A stretch of DNA of 27,027 bases. Origin: a virus. Shown piece after piece: positions 9,520 through 27,027 of this stretch. The notes beneath the pieces are model-generated. The model did no database searches, was not told where the DNA came from, and saw nothing but the letters and a program-made list of their open reading frames with translations. Positions within the stretch are counted from its first letter, which is position 1, and each line of letters opens with the position of its first letter. The stretch lies in IMG/VR virus record IMGVR_UViG_3300005588_000086, positions 1-27,027 of that record; one strand, 5' to 3'. The position numbers and the translations under genes are program-made.

Positions 9520-10344
9520 ATGAAATTGACAAGCAGTGAATTAAAGGCTTTAGAATGGGGAAACGAGAACATTAAATTTGTAGGAACTAGTAATACTAAT
9601 AAATGGAAGACCAGATATTCAAATCACTATAAAAGAGCTTTTACCCCAACTACAATTGTTGATCATATTTCAGAAGGAACCATGTCATCTTTGATCGATT
9701 GGTTTACTTCAAAAGGTAATACAGGATCTTCTTCTCATTTTGGTATTTCTAAGAAAGGGGAAGTAGTTCAATTTGTAAAGATTGAAGATAGAGCTTGGTG
9801 TAATGGATTAATTAAAGATCCATCAGCAGATATGATACATCAAGTTGGATTAGATATTAATCCTAATCAATATACTATTTCAATTGAACATGAAGGAAGA
9901 TATCGAGAAACGAAAGGAGCATTAACTGCTGAACAATTAGAAGCAAGTATTAAAACTCATGCTTACATTATTGCTTATGTCAAAAAACATTTTAACTTTG
10001 AAATACCAGTAAATAGAAAACATATTATCGGACATTATGAAATTGATGCAATCAATAAAATTAATTGCCCAGGCAAAGATTTTCAATGGTTTGAATTAGT
10101 GCAAGAAGTTCAGATTCTATTAAATCAAAATACTCTTCTTGATATAGAAGGACATTGGGGAGAAGAATTTATGAAAAGAGCAGTTAAACTAGGATTAGTT
10201 GAGGGATATGGTGGGAAGTATATGAAACCAGATAAGCAAATGACTAGAGCAGAAGCAATTACTTTAGCTGTTAAAACTTACGACAAGGTGATTAATGATT
10301 TAGTTACTATTATAAAGGACTCTTTAAATGATTTACAGAGTTAA
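9520..10344 (+). CDS. Endolysin: N-acetylmuramoyl-L-alanine amidase (Amidase_2) with one SLH domain
   Basis: 274 residues, AAGGAG before ATG 9520. Residues ~25-200 are an amidase-2/PGRP domain, a zinc enzyme that cleaves the bond between MurNAc and the stem peptide: His49 (IVDHIS), His172 (GHYEID) and Cys183 (NCPG) are the expected zinc ligands, with the SHFGIS motif at 72-77 and IEHEG near 122-126. Residues ~208-250 read DIEGHWGEEF... TRAEAI, a single SLH repeat that binds pyruvylated secondary wall polymers. No signal peptide, so export depends on the holin. One SLH copy instead of the usual three is unusual. It is followed by a terminator. Confidence 0.9.
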   Translation: MKLTSSELKALEWGNENIKFVGTSNTNKWKTRYSNHYKRAFTPTTIVDHISEGTMSSLIDWFTSKGNTGSSSHFGISKKGEVVQFVKIEDRAWCNGLIKDPSADMIHQVGLDINPNQYTISIEHEGRYRETKGALTAEQLEASIKTHAYIIAYVKKHFNFEIPVNRKHIIGHYEIDAINKINCPGKDFQWFELVQEVQILLNQNTLLDIEGHWGEEFMKRAVKLGLVEGYGGKYMKPDKQMTRAEAITLAVKTYDKVINDLVTIIKDSLNDLQS

Positions 10345-10954: not shown

Positions 10955-11399
10955 TGAATATGCTGATTTATTAACTAAAAAGAAGTCAATTGAAAATGAT
11001 CTTGCTGGATGCAAAGCAGAATTAGAAGAGTTAGTTGAATCTTATTACCCTGATGAAAAAGAATTTAAATCTGTTTCTGGAATTATACTTAAGTTAAAAA
11101 AATCTTTAACTGTGGTTTATGATCCTGATCTTATTGAGAAATTACTTAAAAGTATTTCAAAGGATCTGGCTGAGGAAACAGTTAATAAGAAAATCATTAT
11201 TGATGATTATGTAGGTTTGATAAACTATCTTTCAGAATGCGGAGTAGATCCTAAAATATTTAAATCTTTCTTGTCGGTAGAAAAGACTGTTAAAAGTGCT
11301 GATATAAATAAATTGCATGAGAAGGGAATAATTGAATTAGAATCTCTAAAACCGTGTATTATTTCAGCTAAATTATCTAAATCATTTGGAGTAAAATAA
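10905..11399 (+). CDS. Unknown protein in the replication operon
   Basis: 164 residues, start chosen at ATG 10905 after AAAGGTAAGCGA; this overlaps the previous gene by 50 bases in another frame. It is Lys/Glu-rich and predicted helical, with a coiled-coil-like N-terminal part (IDEYADLLTKKKSIENDLAGCKAELEELVESYY). The start and helical character resemble phage Gp157/host-nuclease-inhibitor-type proteins, but I do not recognise a clear family motif and make no functional claim. Its end shares one base with the start of the primase gene (TAATG), so coupling with the primase is likely. Confidence 0.55.
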   Translation: MTTKKITVKQKTDQVIDEYADLLTKKKSIENDLAGCKAELEELVESYYPDEKEFKSVSGIILKLKKSLTVVYDPDLIEKLLKSISKDLAEETVNKKIIIDDYVGLINYLSECGVDPKIFKSFLSVEKTVKSADINKLHEKGIIELESLKPCIISAKLSKSFGVK

Positions 11400-12319
11400 T
11401 GTTACCTTTAGAAGCAGTTTTGAAATATTATAATCTTTTAAGATATGAATCAAAATACAAAATTGTTTGTCCCTTTCATGAGGATGTAAATGCAAGTTTA
11501 CAAATTGATTTGGATAAGCAGTTTTGGTTTTGTTTCGGATGCCAGATCGGAGGGGGATCTATAGAATTTGTTAAGTATGCAGAGGATTCCCTAAATGATA
11601 TGCAAGTACATATGCTTCACGCCAAGATAACCAAGAATTGTGAATTAAAAGGTAAATCTCTGGTAAAGCAAAGAAGTAAAGCAATTGAATCAGATGCAGA
11701 TTTGTACTTAGCTGCTCAAGATTATTATTTCAATTTAAAATCCCAAGATTGGGAAGTTGACAATGATCCAGATGTAGAATATATGATAAAAAGGGGATTT
11801 ACAAGAAAAGTTTTAACTGAATGTGGGATGAAGTTAGCTTATAATAACAACTATCCAATAGTCTTTCCTATGTATGATGAGGACAAATTTAGAGGATGGG
11901 TACGTAGAACCACTAATCTAGAAATTGAAAAGGACAGAAAGTATCTTTATAATAAAGGATTTTCTAGGAGAGACACTATCGTAGGAGATTATCATGCAAA
12001 AGTAGTTATGATTGTTGAAGGATACATGGATCGGCTAAAAGCAATTCAGTTTGGAATGAAATATGTAGGAGCTATCTTAGGGTGGAAAATTACTGAGGAG
12101 CAAATACAAAAATTAAAGGATGCAGGAGTTGAGGAAATAATCTCAGGATTAGATAACGATGAATGTGGTAAGAAAGGGACACGTGTATTGAGGCAACATT
12201 TTAAAGTTACAAGATTTCAATTTAAAAAAGGCATAAAAGACATTGGTCAAATGGATCAAGCTTTATTTGATAAATGTAAAAAGAAAACAATGGAAAAGAG
12301 GAGGAAAGATAATGGGTAG
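11399..12319 (+). CDS. DNA primase, CHC2 zinc-finger and TOPRIM (DnaG-type)
   Basis: 306 residues. Zinc finger: Cys24-x2-His27 and Cys45-x2-Cys48 (CPFHED ... FCFGC), the CHC2 motif that positions template DNA. TOPRIM part in the C-terminal third: IVEGYMD (about 204-210) with the catalytic Glu, and GLDNDECGKKG with the DxD-type metal residues. It makes RNA primers for phage DNA synthesis. No helicase domain follows, so unlike T7 gp4 this primase is separate and needs a helicase from elsewhere or from outside the window. The gene overlaps the upstream ORF by one base and the downstream SSB by eight. Confidence 0.88.
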   Translation: MLPLEAVLKYYNLLRYESKYKIVCPFHEDVNASLQIDLDKQFWFCFGCQIGGGSIEFVKYAEDSLNDMQVHMLHAKITKNCELKGKSLVKQRSKAIESDADLYLAAQDYYFNLKSQDWEVDNDPDVEYMIKRGFTRKVLTECGMKLAYNNNYPIVFPMYDEDKFRGWVRRTTNLEIEKDRKYLYNKGFSRRDTIVGDYHAKVVMIVEGYMDRLKAIQFGMKYVGAILGWKITEEQIQKLKDAGVEEIISGLDNDECGKKGTRVLRQHFKVTRFQFKKGIKDIGQMDQALFDKCKKKTMEKRRKDNG

Positions 12320-13103
12320 TATTGTTGATAAAATGAAAAATAATATTAAAAGCTCAGGCGGAAGTAGAAAGAAAATCTTATATGTAGGGGATGGGCAAAA
12401 GAGAAGGGTCCGATTCTTACAAGAATTAGATCAAGGCTTAGTTTTAACTTTTCATGATAGTTTTACTTTAGGTGTGAATGCACTTTGTTTAGACGATACG
12501 TTTGGGCAACCTTGTAAGCATTGTGGGAATGATGCTCTTAGAACACGTGAAATGTTTGGATTTTTAATCTTTGATTATGAGGATTCTGAAATAAAAGTAT
12601 TCTTATATGCAGCTAATAACTTTTCACCACTTCCTCAGATAATTGTATTTGCTGACACTTATGGTACAGTTACAGATCGTGATTTTGTAATTCATAGAAA
12701 TGGTAAAGAAAAGAAAACATCATATTCTGTAGTTCCATTAGATCCAGCTAAAATGAGAAAGCAACCTAAAAAACCATCTAAATCTGCTGTTCTAAAAATT
12801 ATTGCTAAAGCATTTCCTCAAGGGGATGATGATACAGACGATTATGATGATGCAGTTGAACAAGTTGAAGATGAGGAAGTTTGGGATGATGATGAATATG
12901 CAAATAAATCTCCTAAAGAATTATATAAACTTTGCAAAGAAAAAGATCTGGATCCTGATCAGAAACAACCGAAAGAATACTATATTGAGTTATTGAAATC
13001 CGATTCAGTTGATGATGAAGACTGGGATAATGAAGATGATGAAGACTGGGATGAGGATGGTGACAGTAATGATGAAACAATTCCAGATGTTGATGAGTGG
13101 TAA
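12312..13103 (+). CDS. Single-stranded DNA-binding protein, T4 gp32-like zinc type
   Basis: 263 residues from ATG 12312, chosen because GAGGAGGAAAGATA precedes it (the frame is open 23 codons further upstream). Residues His48, Cys59, Cys68 and Cys71 reproduce the His-x10-Cys-x8-Cys-x2-Cys spacing close to the zinc ligands of T4 gp32. The protein begins with the basic N-terminal segment needed for cooperativity and ends in a strongly acidic tail with many Asp and a final DEW. Between two acidic blocks sits a short HeH-like unit KSPKELYKLCKEKDLDPDQK. It would coat single strands during phage replication and interact with the polymerase and RecA coded downstream. Confidence 0.8.
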   Translation: MGSIVDKMKNNIKSSGGSRKKILYVGDGQKRRVRFLQELDQGLVLTFHDSFTLGVNALCLDDTFGQPCKHCGNDALRTREMFGFLIFDYEDSEIKVFLYAANNFSPLPQIIVFADTYGTVTDRDFVIHRNGKEKKTSYSVVPLDPAKMRKQPKKPSKSAVLKIIAKAFPQGDDDTDDYDDAVEQVEDEEVWDDDEYANKSPKELYKLCKEKDLDPDQKQPKEYYIELLKSDSVDDEDWDNEDDEDWDEDGDSNDETIPDVDEW

Positions 13104-13458
13104 AAATGGTGATGACATTTTAAGAACAATATTTGATATTATTATTGAGAATGAAAAGAATTTTAATGATGATATTTTACCTAAAGATGATCCTGTTAAG
13201 TTTTTTACAATGATATCTGCTATGATAGTTGAGGCAGGGGAAGCATTGCAAGAAGATAAGAGATGGAAGATTCTTGTAGGTAACAAAAGGGAATACGAAA
13301 AAAATGATGACAAACAACTTGAGGAATTGGCAGACGTTTTTATTTATGGGATAGCTGCAATATTATATGCAAACTTTGATTATGATATGTTCATAGAAGC
13401 TGTTCTACAAAAACTGCAAATTGTTCATGAAATATCTTTGGAAGGAGCAAAATTATGA
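13093..13458 (+). CDS. MazG/dUTPase-like all-alpha NTP pyrophosphohydrolase (probable dCTPase/dUTPase)
   Basis: 122 residues from ATG 13093 (13087 is an equally open alternative); it overlaps the SSB gene. Key residues of the all-alpha NTP-PPase superfamily are present: Glu47 and Glu50 (VEAGEAL), Glu54, the pair RWK at 57-59, and Glu78-x2-Asp81 (EELADVF), the ExxE...ExxD magnesium set. These enzymes turn dNTPs into dNMP and pyrophosphate. T4 uses one (gp56) to destroy dCTP so that only the modified form enters DNA. Placement beside the carbamoyltransferase and dCMP hydroxymethylase-like genes suggests the same task here, but the base specificity cannot be read from the motifs. Confidence 0.78.
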   Translation: MSGKNGDDILRTIFDIIIENEKNFNDDILPKDDPVKFFTMISAMIVEAGEALQEDKRWKILVGNKREYEKNDDKQLEELADVFIYGIAAILYANFDYDMFIEAVLQKLQIVHEISLEGAKL

Positions 13459-15272
13459 TCGTATTTGGTATTAGTTTAAGTTATAATTCATCGGCATGTG
13501 TCGTTGATTCTAAAAGAGGAATTATGCACGCTATATCTGAGGAAAGATTTACTAATGAAAAGAATAGTAGAGATTTCCCAATCAATGCTTTGAGATCTTG
13601 TGTTGATTTTATTTTAGAAAGTGATTTATATAGAGATGAGATTGTCAAATTTAATGTTGCTATTACATCTTATGAGACTTTAAACTCTAGAGATCTTAAA
13701 TACTTTCCAGATCTAAAGGATTCAGAAAGATCTAAGGATTTTTATTCTACTGTTACAAGATATATTAAAAACAGAATTAATGATTTAAGATCAAGTAAAT
13801 TTCATTATTTTAGAGCAGATCATCATTTATCTCACAGATTGCCTGCTGTTGCTTTAAGTGGATTTGTTGGAAACTTTAGAAATAAAGCAAGAACAATTGC
13901 TATAACTTATGATGGTTTTGGAGATGGGCAATGTGCTACTATTTATGACACAAAGACGCAAGCTGTTTTGGATTCAGTTCCAATGTATAATAGCTTAGCT
14001 TTAGTTTATCAGTTTGTTACAGGAGCTTTAGGATTTACTGAGCATAAACATGAGGGGAAAATAACAGGATTATCTGGCTTTGGATCTCCTATTTATGTTA
14101 ATGAATTTGAAAAGATAATTAAGTTTGATCCAGAAATTAAAGATTTTGACTCAGTTTATTTAGACACTATTTGTAATTTAAAAGCATTAGCTTACAACAA
14201 GTCACCTTTTAATACTAACATTAAATATTTTAGTAATTTCTTACTTTTAAGACAAACAGTTTATGAGATGGTTGAAAATCTAAAAAGACATGACGCATCA
14301 CGAGAGGATATTGCAGCATCACTTCAAAAATATGTAGAGATGCAAATAACAGACTGGATAGATTCTACTTTATATAAAAATGAAATCGGAGATGAACATT
14401 TGAATTTTGTTTTATCTGGCGGATTATTTGCAAATGTAAAGTTAAATTTTGAACTAAAACGAAACTTTGGTTTAAAGAATATATTTGTTTATCCTGCTAT
14501 GGGAGACGAAGGAACTTGTGTTGGTGCAGCTTTAGCATTTTTACAAACTAAAATGAATAACAACTTTATGAGTGAATTATGTTTTTCTAGGGATATTCTT
14601 TATAATGGACTTACTTTAGAAGAACAATTAGAAGCTGTAGAATTGAATCACATTTTTATTGAAGAATGTATAGATTTGGATATTGATTTTGATAATTATG
14701 ATTTGATTGCCGATCCTACTGAAAATCAAAAGATCTCAGTATTTGCTAATAACCTAGCTTTAAATAAAATTGTATGTACTTCTATTGGTGATAGTGAATT
14801 CGGGCCTCGTGCTCTCGGTAATCATTCTATATTCTTTGATGCTACTAAAGAAGAGACAAATACTGAATTAAATAAAAAATTGAATAGAACAGAATTTATG
14901 CCTTTTGCTCCTATTGTTTTAGACATATTTGCAGATGATCTTTTCGAACAATATGAAGGTGCTGAAAAAACATGTAAGTATATGACTATTGCTCTTCCTT
15001 GTAAAAAGGATTTTAGAGAAACTTATTTGGCAGCAGTTCATGTTGATGGAACAGCAAGGCCTCAAGTTATAGGCTACAATGATAATGAAACTATTTATAA
15101 AGCAATTCATGCCTATTTCAGAATTACAGGAAATAAAGCTCTTGTAAATACAAGTTTTAATTTACACAACTTCCCTATTATTAGAGATCCACAGATAGCT
15201 ATAAGTTCATTTTTAAAAGCTGATCTTGATGTTTTAATCTTGGATAATCTAATCATTATTAAGAGAGGATAA
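13455..15272 (+). CDS. NodU/CmcH-type O-carbamoyltransferase (probable 5-hydroxymethylcytosine carbamoyltransferase)
   Basis: 605 residues, four-base overlap (ATGA) with the pyrophosphatase gene. Both parts of the family are complete. The Kae1-like N-terminal domain has HHLSH (123-127), DGFGDG (153-158), GKITGLSGFG (201-210), SGGLFANVKLN (321-331) and the PAMGDEGTCVGAA loop (347-359). The C-terminal transfer domain has FGPRALGNHSI (449-459), FMPFAPIVL (481-489), VDGTARPQ (530-537) and LVNTSFN (563-569). Family members form carbamoyl-AMP from carbamoyl phosphate and ATP and transfer the carbamoyl to a hydroxyl. The neighbouring hydroxymethylase supplies a likely hydroxyl, so 5-carbamoyloxymethylcytosine is the best guess for the product. 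Confidence 0.92.
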   Translation: MIVFGISLSYNSSACVVDSKRGIMHAISEERFTNEKNSRDFPINALRSCVDFILESDLYRDEIVKFNVAITSYETLNSRDLKYFPDLKDSERSKDFYSTVTRYIKNRINDLRSSKFHYFRADHHLSHRLPAVALSGFVGNFRNKARTIAITYDGFGDGQCATIYDTKTQAVLDSVPMYNSLALVYQFVTGALGFTEHKHEGKITGLSGFGSPIYVNEFEKIIKFDPEIKDFDSVYLDTICNLKALAYNKSPFNTNIKYFSNFLLLRQTVYEMVENLKRHDASREDIAASLQKYVEMQITDWIDSTLYKNEIGDEHLNFVLSGGLFANVKLNFELKRNFGLKNIFVYPAMGDEGTCVGAALAFLQTKMNNNFMSELCFSRDILYNGLTLEEQLEAVELNHIFIEECIDLDIDFDNYDLIADPTENQKISVFANNLALNKIVCTSIGDSEFGPRALGNHSIFFDATKEETNTELNKKLNRTEFMPFAPIVLDIFADDLFEQYEGAEKTCKYMTIALPCKKDFRETYLAAVHVDGTARPQVIGYNDNETIYKAIHAYFRITGNKALVNTSFNLHNFPIIRDPQIAISSFLKADLDVLILDNLIIIKRG

Positions 15273-15276
15273 TAAT

Positions 15277-16701
15277 ATGAAAAATTTAAGTATTAATGCT
15301 AGAACTGCAAATGATGCATTCTTAAAAGTACTTAAAGCTTTGAGAGAGGACGGGGAAACCTGTTCTCCTCGTGGTTTAAAGATTACTGAATTATTAAATG
15401 TATCTATAAGTATTGAACATCCTAAAAACAGATTGATCACATTTCCTGAAAGAGCTATTAGTTTACCTTTTGCTTTTGGGGAATTTCTTTGGTATTTAAG
15501 AGGAGCACAGGATTTAGAAACAATGTCTTATTATTCAAGTCTAATGAAAAAATTTTCAGATGATGGTAAGACTTTAAACTCAGCTTATGGATATAGAATC
15601 TTTGGTAGACATAAATCTATAAATTTTAATCAGTGGGATGAAGTAGTTAGTAAACTTCGTCAGGATCCTGATTCAAGACAAGCAATAATCCATCTTCATA
15701 CTCCTAACAACCAACCTACAAAAGATGAAGTTTGCACATTATCTCTTCAATTTCTTATTAGAAATGGAAAGTTAAATATGATAACTACTATGAGAAGTAA
15801 TGACATATATTATGGATTCACATATGATGTTTTTAGTTTCACGTGTATGATGGAAATGATCGCATATGAACTGGATATTGAAATGGGAACTTACTATCAT
15901 AACGTAGGTAGCATGCACATTTATGAGGATAAGATGCATATGTTATCTGATGACTTTTTAATGGATCCACTAAATGAATATGTAATTAAGCACACTCCGG
16001 ATCTTAATCTCGATGGATTATCTAGAGGAACTACAGAACTACAAACCTTCTTTGCTTTTGAAAGATTAACTCGTCAGAATGAATGCTTTTTAAGTTATGC
16101 TCCTAACAATAATTTCTTAAAAATTGCTAAGAAAGTTCTGCTACAATATAGTATTACAAAGCATTATGAAAAATCTAGTTTTACAGGTAATCATAGAGCA
16201 TTTATTGATTCATTATATTATGATAATATTTATGATTGGATGATGTTTAACTTTTATTTCAGAAAAGAAGAAAGATCTTTATTTATAGCAGAAGGAGCAG
16301 ACGGATCTGGTAAAACTACTTTATGTCAAAAAATAGAATGTGATAAGATATTCCACTTTAAGTCTCCAAGTAAAGATTTTAATCCCCTTATTTATATTCA
16401 ATCTTTGAAAAGTTCAGGATCTAAAGTTCTGGATAGAAGTTTTATTTCAGAAATGATTTATAGTGAATTCTTTAGAAGATCAAGTATTATTGAACCATCT
16501 TTTGAATTAGCTTTGTTAGATTGTTTGGAAAAACATCCATCAGTTAAAGTAGTTATTTTAATGAATAATAGACATTATTTAGATGAGCAGGATCTGGTAA
16601 AAATAGGAAAGAATAATATTTCTAGATTAAATGCTTTATACAGATCTTTTGCTAATATGGTTTTAATTCCTATTTGTATCCCTACTAGGATTAAGGAATA
16701 A
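15277..16701 (+). CDS. dCMP hydroxymethylase-like (thymidylate synthase fold) fused to a dNMP kinase
   Basis: 474 residues. Residues 1-~290 are a thymidylate synthase fold: nucleophile Cys153 (EVCTLSLQFLI), RSND at 173-176, GFTYD at 180-184 and H214/Y216 (SMHIY). In thymidylate synthase the position of Asp184 is the dUMP-selecting Asn; T4 dCMP hydroxymethylase has Asp there in the same GFxxD context, which points to dCMP as substrate and hydroxymethyl transfer from methylene-tetrahydrofolate. Residues ~335-474 are a P-loop kinase: GADGSGKTT at 340-348 and LDRSF at 385-389, like thymidylate/deoxynucleoside monophosphate kinases. The fusion would make 5-hm-dCMP and then 5-hm-dCDP. A dUMP hydroxymethylase or an ordinary synthase is possible but less likely. 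Confidence 0.85.
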   Translation: MKNLSINARTANDAFLKVLKALREDGETCSPRGLKITELLNVSISIEHPKNRLITFPERAISLPFAFGEFLWYLRGAQDLETMSYYSSLMKKFSDDGKTLNSAYGYRIFGRHKSINFNQWDEVVSKLRQDPDSRQAIIHLHTPNNQPTKDEVCTLSLQFLIRNGKLNMITTMRSNDIYYGFTYDVFSFTCMMEMIAYELDIEMGTYYHNVGSMHIYEDKMHMLSDDFLMDPLNEYVIKHTPDLNLDGLSRGTTELQTFFAFERLTRQNECFLSYAPNNNFLKIAKKVLLQYSITKHYEKSSFTGNHRAFIDSLYYDNIYDWMMFNFYFRKEERSLFIAEGADGSGKTTLCQKIECDKIFHFKSPSKDFNPLIYIQSLKSSGSKVLDRSFISEMIYSEFFRRSSIIEPSFELALLDCLEKHPSVKVVILMNNRHYLDEQDLVKIGKNNISRLNALYRSFANMVLIPICIPTRIKE

Positions 16702-16703
16702 TT

Positions 16704-19409
16704 ATGCCAGATATTCATAGACATGATGAATTTAGTTCTTTTGACGGTTTTGGTAATCCCACTGAGTTGGCCAAACTTGCAAAAGAACTAGGATATACAG
16801 CACTAGGAATAGCTAATCATGGATCAGTTAGCGGATTAGTACTACATTATAAAGCATGTAGAGAGGAAGGAATTAAACCTATATTAGGAGTAGAAGCCTA
16901 TTTTCTTCCAGTATTTAAGAAACAACGTAAAAAGTATCATTTATGTTTATTTGCTAAAAATTTACAAGGCTATCAAAATATAATGAAAATTATGACAATT
17001 GCAGAAATGGAAAATAAGTATTATTCCGGCACTGTAACTTTTGAACTTTTAGAAAAATATCATGAAGGAATTATTTGTACTTCAGCATGCTTAGCAGGTT
17101 ATACATCTCAAGCAATATTGGCAGGCAATATGGCTTTGGCCAGAAAATCTCTTGTTAAGTTTAAAGAAATATTTGGAGATGATTTTTATATTGAGATCCA
17201 GCCTTATGATTGTTGGGATAATGATGACATAGAAGTTCAAAAAGATGTTAATCTTGATTTAATGGGATTTGCATATGATTTAGATATCAAATGTATAATG
17301 ACATCAGATAGTCACTATGGTAGAAAAGAAGATTTTGATACGTATCTAAAAATGCATGAAATTGGCAATCATAACTATGACATAGTAAAAACTTATGGGG
17401 AAAGATATATGCCAACATACGCCCAACTTGGAAGGAGATTTGTCAATATTTACGGTGAATCAAGTTTTGAGGATCGGTTCAATAATGGAGTTAAAGAATA
17501 TGCAAAACAAATGCTAAGAAATCTTAAAGAAATAGAAAATAAAGTAGAATCAGATATACTTGAAGATTTACCTTTGCTTTTACCTAAACTTGATGATAAA
17601 ATTGATAGTACAAAATTATTAAAAGAAAAAATACAAGCAGGCATGAAGAAAAGAGGAAAGACTTCAAAAGGATATCTTGATAGAGTTAAGCAAGAATTTG
17701 ATGTAATTAAGTATCACGGATTTGAAGATTATTTTCTTATAGTTGCAGATTATGTAAATTTTGCAAAAGATAATGATATTGAAGTTGGGCCAGGAAGAGG
17801 ATCTGTTTGCAATTGTCAAATAGCTTATTTTCTTGGAATAACAGAAGTTGATTCTTATGCACATAAACTTGATTTTAGAAGATTCCTTAGAAAAGATAAA
17901 AAGAAGCTTCCTGATATTGATTTAGATTTTGAAACTAGTAAGCGACAAATAGTTATTGACTATTTAATAGATAAATATCCAGGGCATGCATCTCAAATAG
18001 CATCTTATGGATTATATCAAGTTGATAATCTTTTGAATGATCTTGTTAAAGTTTGCGGAGTTCCAAAGGATGAAATAAAAGTTATAAAATCTCATGCATC
18101 TAGATTTGTAGAAAAAAATGGAAATAATAAAGAAATGAATTTAAAATCTTTAAATGCAGATAGCTATACAATTTATTTAAATAAGATTTATAAAAATATA
18201 TTTAAGCATTTTACTAAACTTTATAAAAATGTTAGATATATGAGTGTACATGCTGGGGGAGTAGCAATTACTGGAGGAAATATTACAGACTATTTGCAAC
18301 TAAGATTAATAAAAGAAAAACCAGTTTCATGTTATAATTTAAACGATGTAGAATTTCTGAATGTAATTAAATTTGATATACTAGGGCTAAAAACAGAGAG
18401 TATAATTAATAATTTGAAAAATATTACAAATGATGCTTACGATGAAAGTTGGCTACAGGATCCAGAATGTTTAAAGAATTTTGCAGAAGGAAAAACAGAT
18501 GCTATATTTCAATATGAAAGTAGTACAGCTAAGGAGATCCTAAGAATGATAAATGCTAATAATTTTAAAGATGTAGTTGTAGCCTCAGCTTTAAATAGGC
18601 CAGGCCCTTTGAATTTTAAAACTCATGAACTTTATGCATCTCAAAAATTAGATGGTAATTTTGAACATGATCTATTTTATAAATATACAAAAGACACATA
18701 TGGCACATTAGTTTTTCAAGAACAACTTCAACAAATTTGTGTAAATATTGGAGGCCTATCTTGGGCAGATGCTGACAAAGTAATGAAAGCTTTAAAAAAT
18801 GTTGGAATTGAAAGTGTAAAGGAAGAAATGGATGCCATTAAATTAGAAATGACAGATAAGTTTGTAATAGGTGCAGTTAAAAAAGGGATTCCTGAAAATG
18901 AAGCAAGAGAAATGTTTACAAAATTATTAGTATATTCATTTAATGAAGGACATGCTACAGGCTATACAATAGTATCTTTTCAAGAAATGTATTATCGTTG
19001 TCATTATCCTATAGAATTCTGGTCAATTAAATTAAAGTATACAACTAATGAAAAGAACATTTTTAAATATAAAGTTAATGCTATTATGGATGGTGCAATT
19101 TTATTCCTTCCTCATGTTAATTATTCAGCTTATTCTTCTTTACGGAAAATAGAGGATGATACAGTTATACAAGAAGGGCTAACAGCAATCAAAGGAATTG
19201 GAGCAAAAGCTGCTGAATCAATTGAAAAAGAAAGAAATAAGAATGGGCCTTTTAGATCTAAAGAAGAATTTATAAAACGATGTAGAAATAGAGCAGTTCA
19301 CAAAGGTGTAATTAAAAAACTAGATGAAAAAGGAGCTTTGGAATTTAGCAAAAAAAGATATATCTCTCGTTGTGTAAAATACAATGCAACATTTTATGCG
19401 AAAGGATAA
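16704..19409 (+). CDS. DNA polymerase III alpha subunit (DnaE-type)
   Basis: 901 residues, starting 2 bases after the fusion gene. The N-terminus is a PHP domain (HRHDEFSSFDG at 5-15 and ANHGSVSG near 37-44). The C-family polymerase core is clear: GPGRGSVCNCQIAYFL and PDIDLDF (about 403-409, acidic residues 404 and 406), matching the paired catalytic Asp of bacterial DnaE. Near the C-terminus a helix-hairpin-helix is visible (AIKGIGAKAAESI). At 901 residues it is shorter than the ~1100 of typical bacterial DnaE, so the C-terminal OB/tau-binding region is reduced. It is a phage-encoded replicative polymerase that would have to accept the modified cytosine nucleotide. No beta clamp or 3'-5' exonuclease is seen nearby. 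Confidence 0.93.
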   Translation: MPDIHRHDEFSSFDGFGNPTELAKLAKELGYTALGIANHGSVSGLVLHYKACREEGIKPILGVEAYFLPVFKKQRKKYHLCLFAKNLQGYQNIMKIMTIAEMENKYYSGTVTFELLEKYHEGIICTSACLAGYTSQAILAGNMALARKSLVKFKEIFGDDFYIEIQPYDCWDNDDIEVQKDVNLDLMGFAYDLDIKCIMTSDSHYGRKEDFDTYLKMHEIGNHNYDIVKTYGERYMPTYAQLGRRFVNIYGESSFEDRFNNGVKEYAKQMLRNLKEIENKVESDILEDLPLLLPKLDDKIDSTKLLKEKIQAGMKKRGKTSKGYLDRVKQEFDVIKYHGFEDYFLIVADYVNFAKDNDIEVGPGRGSVCNCQIAYFLGITEVDSYAHKLDFRRFLRKDKKKLPDIDLDFETSKRQIVIDYLIDKYPGHASQIASYGLYQVDNLLNDLVKVCGVPKDEIKVIKSHASRFVEKNGNNKEMNLKSLNADSYTIYLNKIYKNIFKHFTKLYKNVRYMSVHAGGVAITGGNITDYLQLRLIKEKPVSCYNLNDVEFLNVIKFDILGLKTESIINNLKNITNDAYDESWLQDPECLKNFAEGKTDAIFQYESSTAKEILRMINANNFKDVVVASALNRPGPLNFKTHELYASQKLDGNFEHDLFYKYTKDTYGTLVFQEQLQQICVNIGGLSWADADKVMKALKNVGIESVKEEMDAIKLEMTDKFVIGAVKKGIPENEAREMFTKLLVYSFNEGHATGYTIVSFQEMYYRCHYPIEFWSIKLKYTTNEKNIFKYKVNAIMDGAILFLPHVNYSAYSSLRKIEDDTVIQEGLTAIKGIGAKAAESIEKERNKNGPFRSKEEFIKRCRNRAVHKGVIKKLDEKGALEFSKKRYISRCVKYNATFYAKG

Positions 19410-19412
19410 TTT

Positions 19413-20354
19413 ATGAATAATAAAGATTTAAAGAAAATAATGGATGTGGCTAAAAGTATTACAGTCAAGCAAGGGGAAGGAGCTATATTTCATTTAGGAT
19501 CGGCGGAAGCAAATCTTGGAGTCGAAAGATGGTCAACAGGAATTGTGGAATTAGACAATGCTATTGGAGGGGGGATGCCAAAAGGTAGACAAATTGAAAT
19601 ATTTGGCCAAGAATCTACAGCAAAAACATCTTTAGCTTATCACTTATGTGCCCAACATCCTATTTGTTTATATATTCCAGCAGAAGGTACATTTGATCCT
19701 TTAAGAGCAAAATCTTTTGGGAATACTCCGAAACAAATGTTGGTATATAGAAACTGTAAATATGCTGAAGATATAATTAATAAGATCTTGGATTTCGCAA
19801 GAGCTGGGATCCCGTTAATAGTTGTAGATTCAGTGCCAGGGATGCAATGTAAATCTGAATATGATCAAGTTGAAAAGGATGCAGAAAAGCAACCTCAATA
19901 TGGTCAATTATCTAGATTATTTAGTAGGACGATGAAAAATATTGAAGATACAATTGAAAGAACAGGAACAACAATTATTTGGGTTAATCAAGTAAGAGCT
20001 AAAATAAATGCTTCAGCTTTTGGAGAACAAGATGACTCCCCAGGAGGAAAAGCATTTAAGCATTATATTTCTTTAAGAATTAAAACTTATAGAAGAGAAT
20101 GGATCAATGTTCCTAATAAGAATCCTGCATCATCTTCAACAAATGAAAGATGTGGATTGATTCAAAAAATTAAGATTTTGAAATCAAAAGTTTGTGCTCC
20201 TCAAGAAGAAAGAGAATTACCAATGTTTTTCCTTTATGGATATGTTTCTTTCGATGATCTTCAAGAGAAAAGAAAGATTATTATGAAAGCTAATAATGAG
20301 AAATACAAGAAAAAGAAAGAAGATGAAGAGAATGAAAACTGGGATGACGACTGA
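19413..20354 (+). CDS. RecA/UvsX-type recombinase
   Basis: 313 residues, AAAGGA before ATG 19413. It has a RecA core: the ATP loop GQESTAKT (65-72), the catalytic Glu in IPAEGTFDP (Glu91), Walker B IPLIVVDSVPG (133-143) and the L2-region VNQVRAKINAS (191-201). One oddity is Ala at 70, where the Walker A usually has Gly before the Lys. The C-terminus is acidic (EENENWDDD), as in RecA. It would promote strand exchange for phage recombination-dependent replication together with the SSB and resolvase. Shorter than E. coli RecA (353), so the C-terminal domain is reduced. Confidence 0.88.
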   Translation: MNNKDLKKIMDVAKSITVKQGEGAIFHLGSAEANLGVERWSTGIVELDNAIGGGMPKGRQIEIFGQESTAKTSLAYHLCAQHPICLYIPAEGTFDPLRAKSFGNTPKQMLVYRNCKYAEDIINKILDFARAGIPLIVVDSVPGMQCKSEYDQVEKDAEKQPQYGQLSRLFSRTMKNIEDTIERTGTTIIWVNQVRAKINASAFGEQDDSPGGKAFKHYISLRIKTYRREWINVPNKNPASSSTNERCGLIQKIKILKSKVCAPQEERELPMFFLYGYVSFDDLQEKRKIIMKANNEKYKKKKEDEENENWDDD

Positions 20355-21409: not shown

Positions 21410-22291
21410 ATGAGTTTAAGGGATCAAATCATAGATCAAATAGAAAAAGACAAGCAGCCTAATAATAAATCAAAAGGCAGTACCAAAAAGCCCTTAGAAG
21501 CTAAAATAGCTACAAATAGAATATCATCAGCTAATGCTATAAACCTGCTAAGAATAGAGACAGCATTTGATAAATTATTCTATATGAGGGAAAATTTAGA
21601 AGAAGAACGGGCAGGATTACATTGTTCTCATATTATAAAGGGAGATAGTGAATTCTGTTATAGGGCAGCTGTATTATCGTTACTCTTTAAGCAAAACCAA
21701 GGGGAACATATTAGTGCTGGCTTAAAAAGGATATTTGCTGCCGGTGATAATATTCATGAGAAGTGGCAAGATTTCTTTGATAAATCTGGTAAATCAGAAG
21801 GAATGCAGATTAAAGGTGTAGGAAATGAAGAAAGGGCTTTTAGTAGCATTTATGAAACATATTATACGCCAGATAGTAAAATAATCACCTTGTGGGACAT
21901 GTATAAATATATTCTAGAGATCAAATCAATGAATACATTTGCTTTTAAGAAGGCAGTTGCTGAACCGAACCCACGAAAGAAACATCCCAAAGCCTTCGTG
22001 CAGTGTCAAATGTATATGCATTTTGAAGGAATTCCTTTTGGAATCATATTATTAGAAGATAAAAATGATCAGAATTACCATGTGATATTCATTCAGTATG
22101 ATTCTGAGGTAGTTAAGCCATTCATCCAAAGGGCACAAATGGTTCAGACTCTGAAGCGTGAGTTCCTTTCAGATGGTACTCTACCCCAGAAAAAATGCAA
22201 AGGCTGTAATGACAAGAAAGCTAAGAAATGTGTGATGAGAGATGCCTGCTTCCAAGTTGGGATAGGCAGGATCAAGTTTAAGGCAAAATAA
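21410..22291 (+). CDS. Cas4/RecB-like PD-(D/E)XK nuclease with probable Fe-S cluster
   Basis: 293 residues from ATG 21410. Metal/active-site residues of the RecB-Cas4 fold are visible: His116 (IHEKW), Asp155 (TPDSKI), Glu170-x-Lys172 (LEIKS) and a Gln/Tyr pair (QCQMY, 198-202). Four C-terminal Cys (263, 266, 274, 280) plus Cys83 (EFCYR) could ligate a 4Fe-4S cluster, as in Cas4 and AddB. It is predicted to be a single-strand exonuclease in phage recombination or DNA degradation. It stands alone: no cas1/cas2 nearby, so a CRISPR role is not suggested. It sits between small unknown genes and a resolvase in the replication/recombination block. Confidence 0.8.
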   Translation: MSLRDQIIDQIEKDKQPNNKSKGSTKKPLEAKIATNRISSANAINLLRIETAFDKLFYMRENLEEERAGLHCSHIIKGDSEFCYRAAVLSLLFKQNQGEHISAGLKRIFAAGDNIHEKWQDFFDKSGKSEGMQIKGVGNEERAFSSIYETYYTPDSKIITLWDMYKYILEIKSMNTFAFKKAVAEPNPRKKHPKAFVQCQMYMHFEGIPFGIILLEDKNDQNYHVIFIQYDSEVVKPFIQRAQMVQTLKREFLSDGTLPQKKCKGCNDKKAKKCVMRDACFQVGIGRIKFKAK

Positions 22292-22593: not shown

Positions 22594-22840
22594 AAAGAAA
22601 GTTAAAGGAATTAAACAAGGAAAGTTTAGAATTGTTGTAGATGGACAAATGATTAATACCCAAGTATATATGGATTATGAGGGTAGATTTATTATGGTTA
22701 AAGGAAAAAGAATAAAAGTAAATTGGGATCCTGCAGAATCTAGATTTTATACACCAATTATTTGTAGCAGATCAGATGTAGATCCTGAGTATAGAAACAA
22801 AATGAAGATACTAGAACAAAGGTTATTTGGAAATGCTTAA
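22586..22840 (+). CDS. Small basic unknown protein
   Basis: 84 residues from ATG 22586; AAAGGATGAGAATA gives the SD for this start, and an ATG three codons upstream at 22577 is also open. The protein is Lys/Arg-rich with short strands (KQGKFRIVVDGQMINTQVYM) and resembles a small basic nucleic-acid-interacting protein, which is a guess. It precedes the resolvase gene and overlaps it by about eight bases. Confidence 0.55.
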   Translation: MGRKKVKGIKQGKFRIVVDGQMINTQVYMDYEGRFIMVKGKRIKVNWDPAESRFYTPIICSRSDVDPEYRNKMKILEQRLFGNA

Positions 22841-23447
22841 TCTGAAACATAAAAAGATTGTTATTGGTTTGGATCAGTCATATGAGAATTGTGGTATATC
22901 TATTGCTGTTGATGGTAAGTTAAAACGATGTACCTCACTTAGATTTAAAACCACAGATACTAAATCAGAAAAACGTAGATTATTAAGAGAGAGATTGGGT
23001 AAGTTATTTATTACCTGTTTATTCAGAGCAGGAAACGTGACAGTAATATTCGAAAGAATTAGATTATTTTCTGGAGGTAACATTAATCAATCATATTTAA
23101 TTGAAACAGGAAAATTAATTGGATCTATATTGGATAAGGCTTATCAATGTGGCATAACCTGCTACTCAGTTGACACCAGATCTTGGAAATCTAAAATCTT
23201 AGGAAGTAGTAAAACCTTTGATAAGTATGCTGATTGGGAGAAACCTGAGAAGGCAGCAGCTATAGAATTTATTCAGGCTCTAGGATTTGATTGTAGATTA
23301 CTGGATAAGAATGGAAATCAAAAAATAGTCACAAAAGGTAAAAAGAAAGGAACACTGAAATGGAATGATGATATGGCAGATTCTGGTTGTATTGCTCTAT
23401 ATGGATTCCTACCTGAATCACAACAGAAACTACAACTTGAAGAATAA
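22833..23447 (+). CDS. RuvC-like Holliday junction resolvase
   Basis: 204 residues from ATG 22833 (a TTG at 22827 is also open). The RNase H-fold acidic residues are in place: Asp14 in the first strand (VIGLDQSYENCGISI), Glu in VIFERIRLF, and the paired Asp of NDDMADSG near the C-terminus, followed by the CIALYGF helix. It fits the phage RuvC/YqgF-type resolvases that cut four-way junctions before packaging. It ends the replication/recombination operon; after it comes a new promoter. Confidence 0.8.
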   Translation: MLNLKHKKIVIGLDQSYENCGISIAVDGKLKRCTSLRFKTTDTKSEKRRLLRERLGKLFITCLFRAGNVTVIFERIRLFSGGNINQSYLIETGKLIGSILDKAYQCGITCYSVDTRSWKSKILGSSKTFDKYADWEKPEKAAAIEFIQALGFDCRLLDKNGNQKIVTKGKKKGTLKWNDDMADSGCIALYGFLPESQQKLQLEE

Positions 23448-23677: not shown

Positions 23678-23695
23678 ACCTAGGAGGGTAAAATG
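23678..23695 (+). repeat. Repeated ribosome-binding module, copy 1
   Basis: The 18-mer ACCTAGGAGGGTAAAATG occurs identically at 23678-23695 and 23858-23875, each ending in the start codon of a short gene. It contains a CCTAGG palindrome and a strong AGGAGG site, and both copies are preceded by related ATCAAC sequence. A weaker version (AAGGAGGACGGTAAAATG) precedes the third gene at 24060. Probably a copied translation-initiation cassette. Confidence 0.7.
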
Positions 23696-23851
23696 AGAGA
23701 ATATTTATTAAATCAATTGGAAGAAATTAAAAAGGATATAACTAGAACTTTAGAATCTGGTAAAACAATAAACTTAGATCTTGTAGATTCTTATAATCAA
23801 ATGTTAAGATCTATCGAAGATTTAGATAATCAAATTGAAATTTACTGTTAA
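23693..23851 (+). CDS. Short unknown protein, 52 residues
   Basis: ATG 23693 follows the ACCTAGGAGGGTAAA site. Helical and charged with heptad-like Leu/Ile spacing (MREYLLNQLEEIKKDITRTL, then QMLRSIEDLDNQIEIYC). No family recognised. First gene after the structured leader. Confidence 0.6.
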   Translation: MREYLLNQLEEIKKDITRTLESGKTINLDLVDSYNQMLRSIEDLDNQIEIYC

Positions 23852-23857
23852 TCAACT

Positions 23858-23875
23858 ACCTAGGAGGGTAAAATG
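23858..23875 (+). repeat. Repeated ribosome-binding module, copy 2
   Basis: Identical to the 18-mer at 23678-23695, again ending in an ATG. The two copies lie 180 bases apart and are preceded by similar ATCAAC sequence. Confidence 0.7.
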
Positions 23876-26224: not shown

Positions 26225-26545
26225 ATGAAAGAAAATTTATATCAAGCAGAGATTGGATTCTTAGGAATGTTCCCAAAAGAAAAACCAGTATTAACAGAAG
26301 TTTTACTTAATAAATTAAATACATCTTTTAAAATTATGGTAAACGCATCTCAAGTTACTGCAGATGGGAAAAAAAGTAACTGGATGTTTATGGCTAATAA
26401 TGATAAATCTGGGCCATTAACTTTAGACACAGAAAGAGAAGCAATAAAATTTGTTGAATTTTTAGTTAAGCAAGGCATGGATCCTTGGAATGTTAAAATA
26501 ATTCAAGAATTATACTTCAATTATGGAGGTGAGTTCTTTGGTTAA
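26225..26545 (+). CDS. Unknown protein, 106 residues
   Basis: AGAGGTGAGATC before ATG 26225. Mixed helix and strand with NWMFMANNDKSGPLTLD in the centre and aromatic residues near the end (YFNYGGEFFG). No family recognised. The final codons carry the ribosome site (GGAGGTGAG) of the next gene, which starts inside this one. Confidence 0.55.
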   Translation: MKENLYQAEIGFLGMFPKEKPVLTEVLLNKLNTSFKIMVNASQVTADGKKSNWMFMANNDKSGPLTLDTEREAIKFVEFLVKQGMDPWNVKIIQELYFNYGGEFFG

Positions 26546-27027
26546 AGGAAGAGAAAGAACTCAAAAATGGTATTTAGAAAATGAAAAACATGTAATGTCA
26601 TTTTTGGGATTAACTCCTTGTAAAGGATCTGGTAATGGAGCTGTTGAAAAAGAGGATGGATATAATGATAAAGTTTTGGCTCAATTGAAATCTACAGATA
26701 AAATGAGTTATAAAATGGATCATTTTGATTTAGAGAAATTAAGCTATCATGCAATGTATAGCAATAAACTTCCTCTATTTGTTTTAGAATTCTTAAAATA
26801 TGATGAATTATGGCTATGTTGTAAAGTTGAAGATATATTAGCAATAGTTGCATCTTTATTTGAAGAATCACTCATTCAATATTTTAAAGAAGATCCGGAC
26901 GTAATATTAGATCTGGATTTATCTGAGGATCCAGAAGAAGAAATTGAATGGAAACCACCAAAAGCTATTAAATCTGATGGTTTTGATAAATATAATCAGG
27001 ATCGGAAAAAACGTTATGAAAAGGAGT
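26538..27027 (+). CDS. PD-(D/E)XK-type endonuclease / resolvase-like protein (3' partial)
   Basis: Open to the end of the window (163 codons). I take TTG 26538, eight bases after GGAGG; a GTG at 26529 is also in frame but sits on the ribosome site. The part around residues 28-90 shows KGSGNG, EKEDGYND and LAQLKST followed by a helix (FDLEKLSYHAMY) and a strand PLFVLEFLK, which is the layout of archaeal/phage Hjc-type and restriction-like nucleases. The usual Glu-x-Lys is here Gln-x-Lys (QLK), a variant seen in some members of the superfamily. Assignment is tentative; the end of the protein is missing. Confidence 0.5.
   Translation, partial: MVKGRERTQKWYLENEKHVMSFLGLTPCKGSGNGAVEKEDGYNDKVLAQLKSTDKMSYKMDHFDLEKLSYHAMYSNKLPLFVLEFLKYDELWLCCKVEDILAIVASLFEESLIQYFKEDPDVILDLDLSEDPEEEIEWKPPKAIKSDGFDKYNQDRKKRYEKE

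Follow-up and report, generated by a model that had tools for sequence, protein, structure and literature searches.

A three-gene cassette in the replication block

The stretch of DNA analysed here (the window) is a linear virus record of 27,027 bases from IMG/VR (IMGVR_UViG_3300005588_000086), a fragment and not a whole genome, from a virus of gut-type bacteria. Its head and tail genes are followed by lysis genes (a holin and an amidase with an S-layer-homology domain) and then by a replication block in the order primase, single-stranded DNA-binding-protein (SSB)-like gene, pyrophosphohydrolase, carbamoyltransferase (CT), hydroxymethylase-kinase fusion, DnaE and RecA. The three genes between SSB and DnaE, at 13093-16701, form a cassette that very likely supplies the phage genome with 5-carbamoyloxymethylcytosine in place of cytosine; the carbamoylation of 5-hydroxymethylcytosine (hmC) is itself already known chemistry (MetaGPA, Yang et al. 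2021, PMC8670742). An earlier note on this DNA, made from the letters alone, had predicted this product and had placed the cassette directly ahead of dnaE; its coordinates were right and the open reading frames (ORFs) lay where it had put them. The features of the cassette are as follows.

13093..13458, + strand: all-alpha nucleoside triphosphate (NTP) pyrophosphohydrolase, MazG/dUTPase_2-like (PF08761, ExxE/ExxD motifs)
13455..15272, + strand: class III O-carbamoyltransferase, 605 amino acids (aa) (PF02543, PF16861, structure model)
13482..13484, + strand: codon of CT Y10, aligned with the general-base His of GdmN (H27) and TobZ (H14) (alignment of 119 phage CTs)
15277..16701, + strand: hydroxymethylase-kinase fusion, whole gene (PF00303 plus P-loop domain)
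15277..16017, + strand: hydroxymethylase domain of the fusion, thymidylate synthase (TS) fold, ~aa 1-247, predicted deoxycytidine monophosphate (dCMP) 5-hydroxymethylase (PF00303, 2.6e-29)
15826..15828, + strand: codon of fusion D184, the cytosine/uracil determinant, T4 D179 and E. coli TS N177 (alignment, literature)
16273..16701, + strand: thymidylate-kinase-like P-loop domain of the fusion, ~aa 333-474, predicted hydroxymethyl-dCMP (hm-dCMP) kinase (P-loop; phrog_761, 3e-8)

The cassette genes overlap or almost touch, the CT start overlapping the pyrophosphohydrolase stop as ATGA, and Shine-Dalgarno-like sequences lie upstream of the CT, fusion and DnaE starts. When viral contigs were scanned with the CT as the single query protein, only an identical fragment (L002) was found, and the relatives described here came from profile scans. 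The order MazG, CT, hydroxymethylase-kinase fusion, DnaE was found in three other phages (L033, L049, L181), with CT and fusion at 35-42% protein identity, and because of this recurrence we regard the four-gene order as beyond chance. Kinase, hydroxymethylase and CT were separate consecutive genes in L104, L105 and L186. In L253, CT, PRA-PH, kinase, hydroxymethylase and dCMP deaminase were consecutive, close to the set of co-occurring genes in MetaGPA. The identities that the earlier note had given to the three enzymes were borne out by Pfam and PHROG profiles, by residues and by this recurrence in relatives.

The fused enzyme carries the residues of a dCMP 5-hydroxymethylase

The PF00303 match covers residues 15-226 of the fusion. 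The best solved relative of this domain was the CMP 5-hydroxymethylase MilA (1.6e-42), and thymidylate synthases (best 1.9e-18) and T4 gp42 (1.3e-14) were weaker. At position 177 of E. coli TS, Asp instead of Asn selects cytosine, and a Ser/Arg pair selects deoxyribose where Ala/Lys selects ribose (PMC5175136, PMC6400193); a double swap of the Ala/Lys residues of MilA reverses its preference to dCMP. When the window protein was aligned with T4 gp42, SPO1 gp29 and ~40 phage homologues, E69, S102, Y104, R134, D150, C153, S174, D184, H214 and Y216 were the same as in T4 gp42. The single listed departure, Q135 for R124, also occurs in SPO1 gp29 and many relatives. Thr is found at the second MetaGPA position (147 in E. 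coli numbering), as in T4 gp42. The domain thus has the Asp at the place of T4 D179, the catalytic C153 and E69, and the S174 and R134 of a dCMP 5-hydroxymethylase.

None of the NCBIfam thymidylate-synthase models reached its cut-off with the window hydroxymethylase, and a ThyA assignment was rejected on the Asp at position 177 and a best score of 84.7 bits against a cut-off of 174.55. Because the domain combines the deoxycytidine set D184, S174, R134 and C153 with the failure of every ThyA model, dCMP is its predicted substrate. The relatives, and the CT next to it, suggest that the reaction is hydroxymethylation and not methylation. Besides the fusion, the phage of L101 and L181 has a separate Asn-type thymidylate synthase (L266, at 36600-37700 on the L101 contig), and its dTMP therefore does not come from the fusion.

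Some homologues depart from this pattern. Those at L028:8126-8815, L029:9192-9938 and L052:8296-8982 keep the cytosine Asp, but Tyr replaces T4 S94 and Arg replaces T4 D145; they lie beside unknown duplicated genes and perhaps have an altered reaction. Bacteroides phage BF486P2 carries two different D-type hydroxymethylases, that is, with Asp as determinant (L004:10495-11256 and 13328-14008), the first of which has no conserved Glu at the T4 E60 alignment column.

The carbamoyltransferase belongs to a clade linked to hydroxymethylases

The CT consists of a Kae1-like N domain (aa 4-360) and a YrdC-like C domain (aa 431-603). PF02543 (1.8e-26) and PF16861 (1.3e-46) were each matched across the full model, in agreement with the earlier description of the gene as complete. 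An AlphaFold model (pLDDT 75.7, pTM 0.79), built on an alignment that left out isolate sequences, superposed on GdmN, NovN, VtdB and TobZ with TM scores of 0.72-0.74 over the whole chain. GdmN binds iron through two His and two Asp (PMC9633730); the corresponding H123, H127, D153 and D351 were invariant in 119 of the 119 phage CTs compared. Domain pair and iron ligands are those of a class III O-carbamoyltransferase.

A tree of 119 distinct phage CT sequences placed the window CT in a clade of 19 with a support of 0.964; a second tree (IQ-TREE) gave 98% for this clade and 96% for the 14-member subclade that contains the window. D-type hydroxymethylases were found near 18 of the 19 clade CTs and near 0 of the 100 other phage CTs (Fisher 2e-20, a nominal value since the sequences are related). 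The sole clade member without one, L107, lies on a short contig of 14.8 kb. All 75 cellular CTs taken for comparison fell outside the clade, and a TS homologue was present in the flank of 0/75. L8, S12, F155 and Q186 were found in 19/19 clade members and are rare elsewhere; F155 lies in a loop corresponding to the acceptor-contacting loop of GdmN. The window CT accordingly has a D-type TS homologue linked to it and shares its clade with other TS-linked phage CTs. Clade membership also singles out the isolates Xp15, Effie and the Bacteroides BF phages as candidate carriers of the modification.

One further candidate, L329 (a 39% cellular match), was set aside: its CT frame is broken, no TS homologue lies nearby, and the genes around it resemble, by eye, sugar-type genes of bacteria.

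Proposed pathway to the modified base

The kinase half of the fusion (~aa 333-474) bears the P-loop EGADGSGKTT and the motif LDRSFIS, and matches phrog_761. In L102, L104 and L186, a free-standing homologue stands directly before the hydroxymethylase, near a CT; in L105, L183 and L253, that position is taken by other thymidylate-kinase-like genes. These relatives support well the nucleotide-kinase function that had earlier been assigned to the fused domain, though the kinase appears to be thymidylate-kinase-like. Since genes that are separate but adjacent elsewhere are fused here, hydroxymethylation and phosphorylation are probably coupled steps.

The frame of the pyrophosphohydrolase is open from 13009, with a likely start at ATG 13093 (or 13087), overlapping the SSB stop at 13101-13103. 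The protein matched PF08761 (dUTPase_2) at 5.5e-5 to 7e-5, T4 gp56 belonging to the same family (2e-5). Its ExxE motif is EAGE (residues 47-50) and its ExxD motif ELAD (78-81), as expected of an all-alpha pyrophosphohydrolase of the T4 gp56-type dCTPase family. Members of the all-alpha family act on several NTPs; by analogy with T4 gp56, the window enzyme presumably removes deoxycytidine triphosphate (dCTP).

In the pathway that we propose, the pyrophosphohydrolase would turn dCTP into dCMP, the fused enzyme would, judging from its residues, hydroxymethylate dCMP with methylene-tetrahydrofolate, and its own kinase domain would phosphorylate hm-dCMP. Host nucleoside-diphosphate kinase would complete hm-dCTP, which is established T4 logic. 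The CT would then activate carbamoyl phosphate with ATP as carbamoyl-AMP and pass the carbamoyl group to the hydroxymethyl oxygen, the acceptor being hm-dCTP or (single-stranded) DNA at the fork; the published enzyme did both in vitro. The phage DnaE, encoded by the next gene, would copy the modified genome, and the presumed benefit would be escape from host DNA nucleases, which for the earlier note would be restriction and Cas nucleases.

The carbamoyltransferase assayed in MetaGPA came from a phage contig with a TS homologue and, with carbamoyl phosphate and ATP, converted 5hmdC in DNA to 5-carbamoyloxymethyl-dC (PMC8670742). About 60% of free 5hmdCTP was converted, the enzyme was several-fold less active on double-stranded DNA and weak on RNA, and it did not act on 5hmdUTP; co-occurrence of CT and TS was limited to modified contigs (PMC8670742). 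Because free 5hmdCTP was also used, and double-stranded DNA several-fold less, carbamoylation may precede polymerisation. This is the report of phage CTs acting on hmC to which the earlier note had referred; no later paper on 5hmC carbamoylation was found within the literature searched. The gp42 substrate residues, the hydroxymethylase-linked CT clade and the published precedent together support 5-carbamoyloxymethylcytosine as the product.

Contrary evidence and alternative explanations

Several observations weigh against this product. The general base of GdmN is H27, which takes the proton from the acceptor hydroxyl; the H27N variant is inactive (PMC9633730). The column of this His (TobZ H14) holds Tyr in the window CT (Y10) and Phe (12) or Ser (1) in its 13 closest relatives, the rest of the 14-member subclade. 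His is found there in 105/119 phage CTs, namely the five other clade members, which include the CTs of Xp15, Effie and Bacteroides phages, and all 100 outside the clade. Of the three positions that differed in MetaGPA (TobZ numbering), two are changed in the window CT (W408 to T, R423 to H) and G421 is kept; the text of PMC8670742 prints no residues of modified contigs. As the window CT belongs to a sister lineage of the closest isolates, without the base His, its acceptor chemistry is predicted from sequence. The counts behind the phylogenetic linkage are non-independent events. D184 would also be compatible with a dCMP methylase, whose product offers no acceptor hydroxyl, but the closeness to MilA and the missing ThyA-type C-terminus speak against that option. 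The window kinase is weak by sequence (PF02223 0.006, 16.8 bits against a cut-off of 27), while the domain at the same position passes in L033 (2.6e-7, 31.0 bits) and L049 (1.6e-7, 31.7 bits). For the fusion, the predicted structure (pLDDT 51) was of insufficient quality and was left unused.

The loss of the base His bears on the idea that the final base is not O-carbamoyl-hmC, through another acceptor or chemistry or as an undescribed cytosine derivative, or else that a substitute base such as H197 is used, which we consider unlikely. H197 is invariant in the subclade (14/14) and present in ~1% of the 100 other phage CTs, and it lies on a pocket loop corresponding to GdmN loop 3, which makes it a candidate substitute base. 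Both the Phe, Tyr or Ser at the base site and H197 therefore mark all 14 members, against His and ~1% in those 100. The residues L8, S12, F155 and Q186 of the acceptor loop, on the other hand, are common to the window CT and the His-type hydroxymethylase-linked CTs, and the cassette holds no amine-making or other tailoring gene. His was also found in the base column of only 45/75 cellular CTs by alignment, some of the rest being alignment shifts. Because it is absent from that column in ~30/75 cellular members, the base His is not a strict criterion of the family, and we rejected the notion that its loss is unique to the lineage of the window. That loss in one CT lineage poses a concrete enzymological question.

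It is very unlikely that the TS-like domain makes another pyrimidine, such as hm-dUMP (like SPO1 gp29), 5-methyl-dCMP or hm-CMP (like MilA). MilA, the best solved relative, is indeed a CMP hydroxymethylase, and SPO1 gp29 aligns across a longer stretch. Residue 184, however, is Asp and not the Asn of SPO1 gp29, a methyl product would deprive the CT of its hydroxyl, and a MilA/BcmA-type CMP hydroxymethylase was rejected on Ser174 and Arg134 in place of MilA Ala176 and Lys133, the pair whose swap turned MilA to dCMP.

That the CT acts on a sugar, another small molecule or a surface glycan, like NodU/NolO, its location being incidental, is most improbable: it shares its fold with NodU, TobZ and GdmN, and cyanophage and jumbo-phage CTs can sit amid glycosyltransferase and sugar genes, but its clade, which goes with D-type hydroxymethylases, contains no cellular or cyanophage CT, and we rejected the NodU/NolO assignment on a score of 106.5 bits against a cut-off of 1000 and because PHROG and further scans found no sugar genes in the window. 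Pfam and PHROG scans of the window, a 27-kb linear fragment, likewise gave no glucosyltransferase, as the earlier note had stated. A search of twelve records for T4-type glucosyltransferases found none, and carries little weight since its control was also without a positive.

A probable exchangeable slot between SSB and dnaE

The proposed cassette for carbamoylated hmC lies in an interval whose borders and flanks recur in related phages.

11399..12319, + strand: primase, CHC2 zinc finger and Toprim, flank (PF01807, 3.3e-14)
12312..13103, + strand: SSB-like gene, left slot border (phrog_14578, 1.2e-6; conserved left neighbour in relatives)
16704..19409, + strand: DnaE-type DNA polymerase, right slot border and synteny anchor (PF07733, 2.4e-59; phrog_1601, 2e-72)
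19413..20354, + strand: RecA/UvsX-like recombinase, flank (PF00154, 3.1e-41)

A DnaE profile scan gave ~40 relatives with polymerases 45-55% identical, and 38 loci with both borders, the window included, were compared. The order primase, SSB, slot, DnaE, RecA was constant across loci and the slot content varied; pyrophosphohydrolase homologues were present in the slot of 28 relatives. Five slots were empty (SSB stop <70 bases from dnaE). Fifteen held a D-type hydroxymethylase with a gp42-like residue pattern, accompanied by a CT (the window, L033, L049), by radical-SAM and mostly also glycosyltransferase-like genes (L034, L044-046, L050, L055, L056, L079), or by other genes, some glycosyltransferase-like (L020, L025, L032, L038). 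Eight held ThyX, mostly with nucleoside deoxyribosyltransferase, a YfbR-like HD protein, a small kinase and a methyltransferase. At a single locus (L040:7669-9051) a C5-cytosine DNA methylase (PF00145) was the main occupant. D-type hydroxymethylase and ThyX never occurred together in the 38 slots, nor did CT and glycosyltransferase-like genes. Further cases are L007, L008, L105 and L181.

The CT-bearing polymerases did not form one clade (four changes needed; single clade rejected, AU p=0.0065), and modules therefore seem to come and go at one fixed site. Their enzymes suggest that these modules modify DNA bases. As relatives fill the SSB-DnaE interval with other base-modification sets, the cassette of the window would be one exchangeable module, and we lean towards viewing the interval in this tailed-phage family as a dedicated, exchangeable socket for such modules. 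If so, the DNA of related phages is expected to differ chemically. The slot also provides a ready list of candidate base-modification pathways in comparable phages, including the radical-SAM and ThyX sets.

Three examples of such slot contents follow. The one at L057:6417-10026 (also L023, L024, L039, L043, L072) comprises MazG, nucleoside 2-deoxyribosyltransferase, YfbR-like HD nucleotidase, ThyX, a thymidylate-kinase-like protein and a methyltransferase, and is possibly a separate thymine-type modification pathway. That at L055:5476-10008 (also L044-L046, L056; partly L034, L050, L079), with D-type hydroxymethylase, radical-SAM protein and glycosyltransferase-like genes, predicts sugar-bearing or otherwise tailored hmC. 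At L008:2740-6940 (- strand) and L007:401-5582, a D-type hydroxymethylase lies with TagD-like cytidylyltransferase, HAD/kinase-like and glycosyltransferase-like genes, which suggests a nucleotide-activated polyol or sugar on hmC.

Other features of the window

The S-layer-homology domain is part of the endolysin amidase (9520-10344). It suggests that the host has a cell wall polymer of the S-layer type, which fits the Clostridia-type relatives. A Cas4-domain-type exonuclease lies at 21410-22291, and two Holliday-junction-resolvase-like genes of different PHROG families lie at 22827-23447 and 26523-27026. At 23679-23875, in a region of very small genes, the same leader CCTAGGAGGGTAAAATG precedes each of two short ORFs. 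The window had no Rfam match and no tRNA.

Comparison with known systems

The pathway of MetaGPA is like that of the window in its CT near a D-type TS homologue and an all-alpha pyrophosphohydrolase, and in the predicted base, 5-carbamoyloxymethylcytosine. The window differs in that its hydroxymethylase is fused to a kinase, its genes abut DnaE, and its CT keeps G421 and lacks the base His of GdmN and TobZ. The hydroxymethylase-kinase fusion, the CT lineage without the base His and the residence in an apparently exchangeable slot look new. The cassette extends the base modification, until now represented by a single assayed metagenomic enzyme, to a defined and recurrent operon.

Xanthomonas phage Xp15, Acinetobacter phage Effie, Bacteroides phage BF486P2 and others each have, <=1.5 kb from a D-type hydroxymethylase, a CT that belongs to the clade of the window. 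Unlike the window, they keep the base His, have Thr at R423 and encode the hydroxymethylase as a separate gene, their CTs being 27-29% identical. T4 follows the same logic of dCTPase, dCMP hydroxymethylase and kinase with gp56, gp42 and gp1; gp56 is also PF08761, and the active-site residues of gp42 are conserved. In contrast to T4, the window has a CT, no glucosyltransferase was found in it, and its kinase is thymidylate-kinase-like and fused. MilA, from mildiomycin biosynthesis, is the best solved homologue but has A176 and K133 where the window has Ser and Arg. The nearest relatives of the replication module are Agathobaculum phage AB434P2 and fecal phage MT837767 (DnaE 49-50% identical), which share the order MazG, D-type hydroxymethylase, DnaE; in MT837767 it is also preceded by primase and SSB, and the slot holds a free kinase. 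In place of the CT, both carry TagD-like cytidylyltransferase, HAD/kinase-like and glycosyltransferase-like genes.

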